From Acidobacteriota bacterium (GTDB lineage: Bacteria > Acidobacteriota > Terriglobia > Terriglobales > Acidobacteriaceae), in NCBI GenBank assembly GCA_003225175.1, contig QIBA01000038.1, positions 62,001 to 126,000 of the forward strand: a stretch of DNA of 64,000 nt, in the 5' to 3' direction. Below, piece after piece: positions 4,502 to 14,305 of the stretch; the stretch's first letter is position 1; the number at the start of each line of letters is the position of its first letter. A program made the translations under genes and the position numbers. Under the pieces are notes generated by a model, which was given only the letters and a program-made list of their open reading frames with translations, did not search any database and had not been told where the DNA came from.

Positions 4502-5011
4502 GCTGGATCGGCGTGCGTCGCAAGTCTGCGGTAAAGAAGCCCCTCCCCTTCCTCCGTGACTTCCGTGTTCAATTTTTTGGGTTTCGTAGTTTACTCGGCG
4601 AAAAAAAGACTGAACACGGAGGTCACGGAGATTGGGGAGGAAAAACGCCGAAACCGCCGCTAAGTCCGCAATCTCACATTTCATCTGAATGAGGGCATAC
4701 GCGTTGTAAATGGCCCCAATCTAAAATTGCCCAACCGGTATCCACGATCGTAAGGAAGCCCTCCCCACTCTCCGTGACCTCCGTGTTCAAATTTTTTGGG
4801 TTTCGTAGTTTACTTCGAGCCCGCGGTCCCATCCGAATGAGGGCATTCATCGCGTTGTAAATGGCCCAAATCTAAAATTACCCAACCGGTATCCACGACG
4901 GTTATCCGCGTGAGTAGTTGGTATTGACGGTTTACGTCCAATCGACCGTCACCCAGCGGCTACCCATCCTGGCAACAAAAACGGCGCTGCCGGGATCCCG
5001 ATTGCCGCTGT
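4502..5011. repeat. Gene-free region with direct and inverted repeats
   Basis: No gene is seen. A unit containing ctccgtgacctccgtgttc followed by ttttttgggtttcgtagttt occurs at about 4553-4596 and again at about 4771-4815. A second unit, containing gaatgagggcat and cgttgtaaatggcc and ending near ccaaccggtatccacga, occurs at about 4682-4757 and 4828-4900. The first copy is also followed by its own reverse complement at 4611-4630, which can pair with 4554-4573. This is a nested repeat cluster between the terminator of one gene and the 3' end of the opposite-strand phosphoesterase gene. Confidence 0.75.
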
Positions 5012-6910
5012 TCAGAACGTGGGTCCGACCTCTTGCGATGGGTCACAGACGCCGCTTGTTGGCTGTGTGGGTAATGCAGGCGGGATCTTCCAGGGCGGCG
5101 GCTGCGTGAAATCGAAGAACTCGGTCATGTCGTCGGCCCAGGCGTCGCGCCTGGTTAGGGGAGGCACGTTGAAGGTTGTTTCGACCAGCTTCAGGATCGA
5201 GGTCAGCTCGCGCGGTTTATGAGAGACGAAGTGCGGCTTCACCCAGGGCGAGATTACCATAATGGGAATGCGCAATCCGGAGAGGTTGAACCGGCCTTGT
5301 ACGTCGCTTGATGCCAGGATCGGCGCGATGTCGTCGGGCGGCGGAACCTGGAACGGCGGAACGTGCTCATACAGTCCGCCTCCCTCGTCGTAGGTCAGGA
5401 CAAATGCCGATGACTGCCAGGCGGTGCTCTTCATCAGTGCAGAGAGAATCTTCTGTACCAGAGCCGCGCCGCTCTGAATGTTGTTCTCCGGATGTTCGTC
5501 GAGGCCGGTGCTGCCGGCGCGCTCGATAAAGACGAACTGCGGAAGATCGTCATCGGCCGTGGGCGACGACAGCACCGAGTACAAGTTGCTGATGTTATAG
5601 ACCTTCGGCTTCACATCGCTGCGATAGTAGTCGGCAAAGTCGCTGAGATAGATGTCGCTGTCCTGGTAGTAGTAACGCCAGCTCACTCCTGCCTCGTTCA
5701 ATGCCCGGAAGATCGTCTTCTGCGACCAGCCTGCTGAGCCGGGAGTGTCGTCGTCTCTGTGCCCGAACGACGTGCCGGTAAACATGTACATGCGATTAGG
5801 ATTTGTATTTGTGGGCACGGACGAGAAGAAGCGATCGCTGGTGGCAAACTGCGTTGCCAATTCGTAGTAGTAGGGCAGGTCCGTCTGATCGTAGTGTCCC
5901 ATCTGCCGCGTGCCGTCGGGATCCTTCGTGGTCAGGTTGACGTTCTGCGGGAACTTGTCCATCAGGAACTTGGCATTACTGAAGTCCGTATTCAGGAAGG
6001 TATCGGGCGGCTGCAGATCCATATATGCATGGCTTTCATTCCATGCAAACACGAAGGCCTCGGTGCAAACGGTTTTGTAGTGATACGGCTTGACCAACTT
6101 TCCCGTTTTGGTCTTCAGGGCGAGGTTGGGGTCGAAGCCGTCAATGTCCGCCGCAGTGGCTCCAGGGACTCTCGCGGCGCGATATGCTCCCAGCACGCCA
6201 AAGTAATTGTCGAAACTCCGGTTCTCCTGAAGCATGACGATGATGTGCTTAATGGGATGGGTCGGGACTGGAGGCTGCGCCACACTCACTACAACCTGCT
6301 GTGTCAGCTTCGCGCCGCTCTGAGCCGTCGCGGTCGCTGTGTACGTGGTGGTTGCTCCGGGCGACAGCTTGAGCGATCCATTGGGCAACAAAGAACTCAC
6401 GTCGCCGACGCCTTGGTCGATGGAAAGTGAAGTGATGCCTTGGGAGGCCCAGCTTAGAGTGGCGGTGCCTCCGGGCTGAATCGTGTCGGGCTCGGCGGAG
6501 AAGTCGAACTGGACCGGCAAGACCGTGATAGTCAAGTTGGCGCTGGCCTGCTGTCCGTTGGAATTCGTAACGGTGGCAACGTATGTCGTCGTGCCGCTCG
6601 GCGGAAATGTCTCTGAGCCTGTGGGCAGCGTGAGTTGACGCTCTTCAGGCGCAGGCAGCGCGGGAGCGAAGCTGATGCTGGACGCATTGCTGGCGGTCCA
6701 ACTCAGAGTCGTAAGCTGGCCGGCGACAACTGTCTGTAGGTTCGCCGAAAGCAAAATTGTTGGCGAGCCCGGAGGCGGGGCTGCGCCTTTTCCTACCGAG
6801 CTCGTCTCTGGGGCTGCGGACCCGGCGGCTCCACATCCGACACAAAGAGCAAGAACAAAAACGGCGGCAACAATCAGCAGCGACTCGAATGTGCGACGGC
6901 GAAGATTCAC
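5012..6910 (-). CDS. Secreted phosphoesterase (phospholipase C/acid phosphatase family) with Ig-like N-terminus
   Basis: The 632-residue product has an N-terminal hydrophobic segment ending in LCVGC, a plausible though not perfect lipobox, so it is probably an exported lipoprotein. Residues about 45-210 look like two Ig-like beta-sandwich repeats (TLSWTASNASS, ATLSWASQGIT). The catalytic domain begins near residue 217 with HIIVMLQENRSFDNYFG, the hallmark of the PF04185 phosphoesterase family of phospholipase C and acid phosphatases, and continues with MYMFTGTSFGH, VFIERAGS and FVLTYDEGGG to about residue 600. Expected activity is hydrolysis of phosphate esters in the periplasm or at the cell surface; the substrate cannot be read from sequence. 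The start codon is GTG. The gene stands alone, divergent from the gene at 7206. Confidence 0.88.
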   Translation of the reverse strand: MNLRRRTFESLLIVAAVFVLALCVGCGAAGSAAPETSSVGKGAAPPPGSPTILLSANLQTVVAGQLTTLSWTASNASSISFAPALPAPEERQLTLPTGSETFPPSGTTTYVATVTNSNGQQASANLTITVLPVQFDFSAEPDTIQPGGTATLSWASQGITSLSIDQGVGDVSSLLPNGSLKLSPGATTTYTATATAQSGAKLTQQVVVSVAQPPVPTHPIKHIIVMLQENRSFDNYFGVLGAYRAARVPGATAADIDGFDPNLALKTKTGKLVKPYHYKTVCTEAFVFAWNESHAYMDLQPPDTFLNTDFSNAKFLMDKFPQNVNLTTKDPDGTRQMGHYDQTDLPYYYELATQFATSDRFFSSVPTNTNPNRMYMFTGTSFGHRDDDTPGSAGWSQKTIFRALNEAGVSWRYYYQDSDIYLSDFADYYRSDVKPKVYNISNLYSVLSSPTADDDLPQFVFIERAGSTGLDEHPENNIQSGAALVQKILSALMKSTAWQSSAFVLTYDEGGGLYEHVPPFQVPPPDDIAPILASSDVQGRFNLSGLRIPIMVISPWVKPHFVSHKPRELTSILKLVETTFNVPPLTRRDAWADDMTEFFDFTQPPPWKIPPALPTQPTSGVCDPSQEVGPTF

Positions 6911-12443: not shown

Positions 12444-13316
12444 TCAGGCCACGGCCAGACAAATCTCAACAAAGTTCCTTACCAGGGCAGATTCGTGGAG
12501 CTTATGCCAGGCCACCCCCACGTCCCACTCAGCTTCGCGCCGGTTGATGTCGCTGAAGCGTACGCCGCTCACGCGCATTTGCCTTGCAGATCGGGGCACG
12601 AGTGCAACACCGATGCCGGCGCGCACCAGATTGAGCAGCGTAAACGTGTCTCGCGCCTCCTGCACGACGCGCGGGCTGAAGCCGGCGCTGCCGCATAGCC
12701 TGATGCAGTGGTCGTAATAGGTGGTCGATACTTCCCGGCCGATCACGATGAACGGTTCGTGTGCGATCTTCTCCAGCGTTAGCGCGCCGCGAAAACTGCT
12801 GGAGGCTGCGATGGTCAGTTGCTCCTTGAGGACCTTTTTCACTGCCAATTCCGCCCGGCGGATGGGTAGACGGAGGAAGCCTACGTCCACCTCGCCGGCG
12901 AGCAGGGCCTCGATTTGCCTGGGCGTGGACATGTCCCCGATCTGGATCTCCACACGGGGATGCGCCTCGCGAAATTTGCGCAGCGCGGGAGGAACCAGGC
13001 TATGTATGGTCGCGATGCCTACCGCCACACGAAGGCGTCCGGCTTCTCCGCGGACTGCAGCCTGCGTCGCGTCGAAGAGCGAGTCGAGATCGCGAACGAT
13101 ACGACGGGCTTCGCCATACAGAAGAGTGCCGGCGGCCGTGAGGCGAACATCGCGACGGTTGCGTACCAACAGCGGGCCGCCAAGCTTCTCCTCCACACCT
13201 TTGATTTGTTTACTTAGCGCCGGCTGCGAAATGTGCAGCAAGTTCGCCGCGCGGCCAAAATGCAATTGTTCCGCCAGCACGAGAAAAGAACGCAGTTCTC
13301 GATCCTCCAGTGCCAT
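12444..13316 (-). CDS. LysR-family transcriptional regulator
   Basis: The 290-residue product has the standard LysR plan. The N-terminal winged helix-turn-helix (about residues 1-60) contains LRSFLVLAEQLHFGRAANLL and ISQPALSKQIKGVEEKLG. An effector-binding domain (about 90-290) begins RLRVAVGIATIHSLVPPALR. The effector is unknown. I place the start at the ATG ending at 13316 rather than a TTG two codons upstream. It is divergent from the SemiSWEET/nucleotidase gene at 13418, the usual arrangement for a LysR regulator and its target, and a perfect T-N11-A palindrome overlaps its start. Confidence 0.9.
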   Translation of the reverse strand: MALEDRELRSFLVLAEQLHFGRAANLLHISQPALSKQIKGVEEKLGGPLLVRNRRDVRLTAAGTLLYGEARRIVRDLDSLFDATQAAVRGEAGRLRVAVGIATIHSLVPPALRKFREAHPRVEIQIGDMSTPRQIEALLAGEVDVGFLRLPIRRAELAVKKVLKEQLTIAASSSFRGALTLEKIAHEPFIVIGREVSTTYYDHCIRLCGSAGFSPRVVQEARDTFTLLNLVRAGIGVALVPRSARQMRVSGVRFSDINRREAEWDVGVAWHKLHESALVRNFVEICLAVA

Positions 13317-13329
13317 AACCAATAGTTAT
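13315..13329. promoter_or_regulatory. Candidate LysR operator (ATAAC-N5-GTTAT)
   Basis: A perfect 15-base inverted repeat, ataaccaatagttat, overlaps the start of the LysR gene and fits the T-N11-A rule of LysR boxes (T at 13316, A at 13328). Its position is consistent with autoregulation and control of the divergent gene. Confidence 0.45.
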
Positions 13330-13417
13330 CACACGTTGAATTAAGTTTCATTGGAATTATCGAGCAGGGAAGCTTCTAATTGAGAGTTGAGGGTTGTTTC
13401 GGGAACAGGAATTAGTC

Positions 13418-14305
13418 ATGACTAGTGCAGGCTTAATTGGGCTCATCGGTACTGTTGCAGCGCTGTGCACGACCGGGGCCTTCGTTCCGCAGATCGTCAA
13501 GATCAAGAAGCAGGGCGGAGAAGACATCTCCTTCGCGATGCTCATCGTGTATCTGGTCGGGGTGCTGTTGTGGCTGGTCTACGGGCTGATGTTCCACGCT
13601 CCGGCGGTGATCTGGGCAAATGTGGTTGCTGCGATTCTGGTTGCTACTGCTTTAGTACTGAAAGTCACGTGGAGAGGACCTGCTGGGGAAAGCAGCCGCG
13701 CCCGCCGCTTACGTGTTGCCGTTGATATGGACGAAGTGATTGCTGACGCGCTAAGCCGTCACCTCAGCCTGTACAACCGCGCGACTGGAGAGAACGTTAC
13801 CCCTGATGTGATCCGGCAGAAAGGACTGGACGCAGCGATTCCTGCCAAATATCGCGCGGTCTTTGAGAGTCTGCCGCATGAGGATGGATTCTTCGACGAT
13901 CTTGCAGTGATTCCGAACAGCCAGCATGCATTGCAACTGTTGTCGTCGGAGTTCGATGTCTTCATCACCAGCGCGGCCATGGAGGTGCCGCGATCGTTTG
14001 ATTCGAAGTTCCGTTGGCTGCGTGAGCACTTTCCGTTCATTCCTACCAGCAACATCGTTTTCTGCGGCGACAAGGAAATCATCGATGCCGACTACCTAAT
14101 TGACGACCGCCCACGACACTTCGCCGGTTTTCGCGGAACGGGCATTCTCTTCACCGCACCGCACAATGCGCGGGAACATGCTCCGGTTCGTGCAGACAAT
14201 TGGGATGAAGTACTGGCGATATTGATGAAAAGCCGCTCAGCACTCGGCGTTCAGCATTCAGTTAAGACCGACATCCCTGAGACTCAGGAGCTTGCAATCA
14301 GCTAG
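13418..14305 (+). CDS. SemiSWEET-like membrane domain fused to 5'(3')-deoxyribonucleotidase
   Basis: The 295-residue product joins two domains normally found apart. Residues about 1-88 form a three-helix PQ-loop/SemiSWEET unit (CTTGAFVPQIVKIKKQGGED, then two more hydrophobic helices); SemiSWEETs are small sugar transporters that work as dimers. After a short basic linker, residues about 97-285 form a HAD-type NT5C (cytosolic deoxyribonucleotidase) domain: VAVDMDEVIAD carries the catalytic DxD, FITSAAMEVP the second motif, and CGDKEIIDADYLIDDR the last motif. The HAD domain should face the cytoplasm. The start is the ATG at 13418 with caggaa upstream, not the TTG 24 bases earlier. The C-terminal tail (about 275-295) is encoded partly by a dispersed-repeat sequence. 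Divergent from a LysR gene. Confidence 0.8.
   Translation: MTSAGLIGLIGTVAALCTTGAFVPQIVKIKKQGGEDISFAMLIVYLVGVLLWLVYGLMFHAPAVIWANVVAAILVATALVLKVTWRGPAGESSRARRLRVAVDMDEVIADALSRHLSLYNRATGENVTPDVIRQKGLDAAIPAKYRAVFESLPHEDGFFDDLAVIPNSQHALQLLSSEFDVFITSAAMEVPRSFDSKFRWLREHFPFIPTSNIVFCGDKEIIDADYLIDDRPRHFAGFRGTGILFTAPHNAREHAPVRADNWDEVLAILMKSRSALGVQHSVKTDIPETQELAIS

Follow-up and report, generated by a model that had tools for sequence, protein, structure and literature searches.

Is an open reading frame that reads as a SemiSWEET transporter unit followed by a 5'(3')-deoxyribonucleotidase a real protein and, if so, what could a nucleotidase do at the end of a small passive pore? A preliminary description of the 64-kb stretch of acidobacterial DNA analyzed here (the window) had proposed such a fusion beside a divergent LysR gene. 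Both component families are known. SemiSWEETs (4rng, 4qnc, 4x5m/4x5n, and 9kax) are described as standalone units, and members of the NT5C family (PF06941; 3bwv, human cdN and mdN, and Dtm of phage PBS1) as soluble or organellar enzymes. In the open-access literature we found no published SemiSWEET-nucleotidase or PQ-loop/haloacid dehalogenase combination, although architecture databases may list it uncommented, and nothing relevant on YorS. The passages found by keyword in two reviews on SemiSWEET diversity deal with SWEET-unit repeats and gene neighbors, not with enzyme fusions; they record an inositol-phosphate phosphatase gene adjoining one archaeal SemiSWEET. The features of the locus are collected in Table 1.

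Table 1. Features of the fusion locus, in window coordinates
Feature	Position	Strand	Basis and remarks
LysR-type regulator gene, divergent	12444..13322	-	Likely ATG 13316, listed ORF start TTG 13322; Pfam domains
Extended LysR operator ATAACCAATAGTTATC-N15-TTTCATTGGA (predicted)	13315..13355	+	First part overlaps lysR start codon; shared spacing at six fusion loci
SemiSWEET-NT5C fusion gene, 295 aa	13418..14305	+	One open frame; Pfam/NCBIfam/PDB domains; ten homologues with both halves
SemiSWEET unit, residues 6-84 (three TM helices, P24-Q25, pocket W52 and N68)	13433..13669	+	Pfam, AF2/Foldseek, conservation
Variable linker, residues 85-96	13670..13705	+	Fast-evolving; ca. 60 to 70 aa longer in L007
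NT5C/HAD phosphatase domain, residues 97-272 (D103, D105, T184, K219, D229, D230)	13706..14233	+	Pfam, AF2, Foldseek, conservation
C-terminal tail, residues 273-295, poorly conserved	14234..14302	+	Low pLDDT, relaxed dN/dS

A SemiSWEET unit and a nucleotidase domain in one frame

The frame runs uninterrupted from 13418 to 14302 and ends in a stop at 14303-14305, so that a SemiSWEET unit and a complete NT5C domain are indeed joined through a short linker, as had been claimed. Searching both halves against domain databases bore this out, with three matches above the curated Pfam cutoffs: MtN3_slv (residues 6 to 81, E value of 4.3e-7, 30.3 bits against 23.7), PQ-loop (residues 9 to 62, 27.5 bits against 22), and NT5C (residues 100 to 273, E value of 5.6e-41, 140.8 bits against 24.8, covering profile positions 4 to 178 of 180). 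The NCBIfam model SemiSWEET_2, which covers one subfamily rather than the whole family, scored 71.6 bits, below its cutoff of 80. Among PDB sequences, the membrane half matched several SemiSWEETs (9e-14 and weaker), and the entry nearest to the enzyme half was 3bwv, an NT5C protein (5e-40, 39% identity). No second NT5C or MtN3_slv match was found in the 5.7-Mb, 268-contig assembly of this genome.

Structure prediction, which had been suggested as a check, recovered both folds as models. AF2 run on the whole protein with 36 aligned sequences gave block-mean pLDDT values mostly of 92 to 98 over the enzyme domain and of 56 to 58 over the last 15 residues of the tail. The membrane half was modeled poorly in this run (pLDDT of about 66 to 87) because only five aligned rows covered it, and it was therefore folded apart. 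Residues 1 to 92 alone yielded predicted helices at 3-32, 39-58, and 62-84 (mean pLDDT of 71.7), and the top Foldseek matches of this model were the SemiSWEET crystal structures 4rng, 4qnc, and 4x5n (TM of target up to 0.81). The SemiSWEET assignment is backed by the sequence profiles independently of the weak whole-protein model. For the enzyme half, Foldseek placed 3bwv first (TM of target 0.94, rmsd 1.5), followed by the human deoxyribonucleotidases.

The residues expected of each family are in place. P24, Q25, W52, and N68 align with P21, Q22, W50, and N66 of EcSemiSWEET and are invariant in the 11 distinct fusions known to us (see below). In EcSemiSWEET, the N66A substitution lowered sucrose uptake, the role of W50 varied with the sugar tested, and the TM1-TM2 loop is cytoplasmic (PMC4309421). 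Thus, the fusion shares with known SemiSWEETs the three helices, the PQ motif, the pocket Trp and Asn, and the predicted fold, and differs from them in its C-terminal enzyme and in its TM1-TM2 loop, which is one residue shorter than in solved structures and carries G33 in all 11 fusions and GG in 10. Among the standalone SemiSWEETs listed, only L154 (positions 1483 to 1758, from G492) has the GG loop, and it is also the nearest standalone relative in the tree. The DxD (VDMDEV) and LIDDR motifs of the enzyme lie where the preliminary description had put them. Far from lacking catalytic residues on alignment, the domain keeps D103, D105, K219, D229, and D230, which are invariant in the 11 fusions and in 36 aligned NT5C sequences; T184 is present in the window's protein, in a column that varies among fusions. 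The complete HAD domain and its catalytic residues are therefore common to the fusion and the known NT5C enzymes, whereas the tie to a membrane transporter unit sets the fusion apart.

Recurrence and history of the fusion

Recurrence in other Acidobacteriota had been put forward as a check, and the fusion does recur there. Counting the window, we collected 11 distinct fusions, the other ten at 42 to 79% identity and all from Acidobacteriota. Seven of them, with both halves in one frame, came from a search of 398 genomes of the family (46 to 79% identity), two (G633 and G745) from a phylum search that extended the set to two other families, and one (L007) from a genome-contig search covering the best 80 of 488 candidate relatives, whose score favored close NT5C matches, so that fusions outside Acidobacteriota may exist. 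Loci L003, L004, and L005 were counted with the fusions of G135, G009, and G084, given their identical identity values and endpoints. The L007 fusion (4995-6041) has a far longer, alanine-rich linker.

Since the same two-domain frame is found in ten other distinct proteins, chance is excluded, and an assembly or frameshift artifact is ruled out because independent genomes share it, the single-contig G216 among them. Related genomes could instead have carried two separate genes with a stop between them; a scan of 181 loci with a profile for each half turned up no adjacent, unfused SemiSWEET and NT5C genes. The SemiSWEET-NT5C architecture is thus real and conserved in some soil Acidobacteriota. 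A phage or plasmid origin was also discarded, as matches there were of the unfused NT5C type only. In a census of 386 genomes of the phylum, 42 had a SemiSWEET-like match, three of which were fusions (the window, G633, and G745). Most members of the family with a match have a standalone NT5C, and some a standalone SemiSWEET. Two genomes of the window's genus (G108 and G171; loci L138 and L139) are without the fusion; their SemiSWEET belongs to a different lineage, and the order-level search gave no NT5C match in them.

Within the window's genus, dN/dS was 0.05 to 0.08 for both halves, values that are only approximate because dS exceeds 1 (near saturation) for both domains, and roughly 0.3 to 0.6 for the linker and tail where computable. 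Domain values were higher in the L086/L087 pair (0.22 to 0.26). These ratios indicate strong purifying selection on both halves and drift in the linker and tail.

A single branch (support of 97/93, present in 96% of bootstrap trees) sets the fused SemiSWEET halves apart as a group, which makes a single origin likely. In a rapidly built NT5C tree, the fused enzymes did not stay together, but the fit improved by 27 log-likelihood units when they were grouped with L006 (p-AU of 0.89), and a clade of the fused enzymes alone was not rejected (p of 0.30). The NT5C of L006 (4992-5567), which falls among the fused enzymes, is standalone, with neither a SemiSWEET nor a LysR gene adjoining it; in the simplest view of these trees, it represents an apparent loss of the membrane half. 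One fusion origin and one loss probably account for the data, with G633 and G745 on long branches.

The LysR gene and its putative operator

Both the divergent LysR gene and the perfect operator-like palindrome that had been pointed out are present at the locus. The regulator matches HTH_1 (1.1e-19) and LysR_substrate (1.9e-43), and a perfect dyad, ATAAC-N5-GTTAT, at 13315-13329 overlaps its likely ATG. With its HTH and substrate-binding domains and a T-N11-A dyad at the divergent promoter, the locus fits a LysR-type system. In the window, the pattern ATAACNNNNNGTTATC is matched exactly at a single site.

The association of this gene with the fusion, whose recurrence had been suggested as a check, held in part. 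A divergent LysR adjoins seven of the 11 fusions, those of the window, G054, G135, G009, G084, G216, and G146 (genera g1, g10, g9, and g28), and none was seen next to those of G078, G633, G745, and L007; moreover, the LysR and its operator also flank other genes. The remaining neighbors of the fusion differ between genera. The regulators share 54 to 89% identity within the g1 and g10 set and 69% between G216 and G146, and 37 to 44% across sets. The intergenic arrangement ATAAC-N5-GTTATC-N15-TTTCATTGGA, with one spacing, is common to the window and five other fusion loci, with one mismatch to the pattern in g10 and three in G146. In G135, the LysR (L142:8801-9526) is missing the HTH at its N terminus, and the first half-site of the operator is missing as well; a true deletion or a faulty assembly would explain this.

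When 393 genomes of the family were scanned for the operator, allowing up to three mismatches, 11 matched, and the reversed control gave zero in every genome listed. Six matches were at fusion loci and the others in G309, G129, G078, G203, and G199. In G309 and G129, a related LysR with the same operator faces a GH1 glycosidase (by Pfam in G309; the G129 frame is closely similar). These GH1 genes (L183 and L190) have a twin-arginine-like N terminus, Pfam having been run on L183. In G078, whose fusion is on a different contig, a related LysR with the operator faces a VOC-type gene. A VOC/3-dmu-9 gene occurs both there (L189:1666-2106) and 3' of the fusion in G146 (L147:2795-3208), and may be a shared partner. 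A LysR exclusive to the fusion is therefore ruled out. Because the operator also lies beside GH1 and VOC genes, it appears to belong to a LysR subfamily of which the fusion gene is likely one target, and the inducer need not be related to nucleotides.

Possible roles of the fused protein

What the protein does has to be reasoned from its parts. By analogy with EcSemiSWEET, whose TM1-TM2 loop faces the cytoplasm, and given an odd number of helices (three), the C terminus and its phosphatase would lie on the cytosolic side. The chain would dimerize, since dimers are the working form of SemiSWEETs and are also formed by NT5C enzymes, with one pore and two active sites per homodimer. We tentatively favor, at somewhat less than an even chance, an inducible nucleotidase of the inner membrane, with substrate and direction inferred: it would strip the phosphate from a (deoxy)nucleotide or comparable phosphate ester in the cytosol and let the product out through the passive pore of the same protein. 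dTMP, dUMP, or another pyrimidine (deoxy)nucleoside monophosphate would most likely serve as the ester, whose dephosphorylated, neutral form would exit by facilitated diffusion through the adjoining pore. Since a SemiSWEET is a uniporter, dephosphorylation at the pore mouth would bias the flow outward. A metabolite would act through the divergent LysR to switch on the gene, and the fusion would serve as an overflow or detoxification valve.

Two known systems make such a sequence of dephosphorylation and release worth proposing. dTMP and dUMP are substrates of PF06941 enzymes both in phage PBS1 and in human mitochondria (PMC12697855). In E. coli, surplus UMP is removed by a different HAD phosphatase, UmpH, in a directed overflow of pyrimidines (Reaves et al. 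2013, cited in PMC8475336). UmpH thus resembles the fusion in the role proposed here, degrading an excess nucleotide to the nucleoside, but it belongs to another HAD subfamily and is soluble, with no transporter attached. PnuC-type uptake offers a second parallel. There, a passive SWEET-like pore works with phosphorylation trapping, and a cytosolic-side enzyme sets the net direction of the pore, as we propose for the fusion. In PnuC systems, however, the enzyme is a kinase and a separate protein, whereas the fusion has a phosphatase in the same chain, so the expected direction is the opposite and the arrangement would be a mirror image of that uptake. A stricter version, in which a homodimer feeds the product of its cytosolic nucleotidase straight into its own SemiSWEET pore, mirroring phosphorylation-trapped uptake as the first nucleoside-moving SemiSWEET, strikes us as somewhat unlikely.

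In favor of a valve, an intact SemiSWEET and an intact NT5C have, by sequence and predicted fold, been kept together in one chain over long divergence. Against it, we know of no SemiSWEET that carries nucleosides, those tested carrying sugars, and among the fusion loci compared no nucleotide-metabolism neighbor is conserved. Four fusions have no LysR neighbor, and the enzyme does not need membrane attachment, since standalone NT5C proteins are common in the family. A different reading is that the SemiSWEET is only an anchor and dimerizer placing the enzyme near the membrane, with transport irrelevant. The loss of the membrane part in L006 and the quite divergent, long-branched SemiSWEET halves of G633 and G745 agree with it, but a mere anchor would not need a pocket, and the PQ hinge and pocket Trp and Asn are invariant in 11 of 11 fusions, in a half about as constrained as the enzyme; we regard it as rather unlikely. 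The substrate might, on the other hand, be a sugar or polyol phosphate, the SemiSWEET letting the free sugar out. The SemiSWEETs studied so far transport sugars and the fusions retain the pocket, HAD phosphatases are often promiscuous (PMC8475336), and the related LysR with its operator adjoins a GH1 glycosidase in two genomes, which keeps a sugar phosphate among the candidate substrates. However, the catalytic half resembles the deoxyribonucleotidases most closely in sequence and fold, rather than known sugar phosphatases, and those PF06941 members that have been tested use pyrimidine deoxynucleotides (PMC12697855), so that we hold this route, too, to be unlikely.

A regulated gate, in which the state of the phosphatase or a bound nucleotide opens and closes the pore so that nucleotide levels control sugar flow, would make use of the short G33/GG loop, which would face the enzyme. 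This seems improbable to us, as a pure sensor could do without the catalytic residues, all of which are conserved, and the loop may reflect mere ancestry, L154 being the nearest standalone relative. Neutral gene fusions do occur, and two unrelated functions could have come together by chance and persisted uncoupled; with both parts deeply conserved together, no adjacent unfused pair in any locus examined, and one apparent loss only, this is very improbable and the least likely of the explanations.

What prokaryotic SemiSWEETs do in the cell, and on which natural substrates, is still unproven (PMC5972207). An enzyme joined covalently to such a unit gives a strong hint of the substrate and makes the question testable with a single small protein. 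The fusion suggests production and release of a compound at the same site and, if the coupling holds true, would show how an attached phosphatase can give a passive pore a direction.
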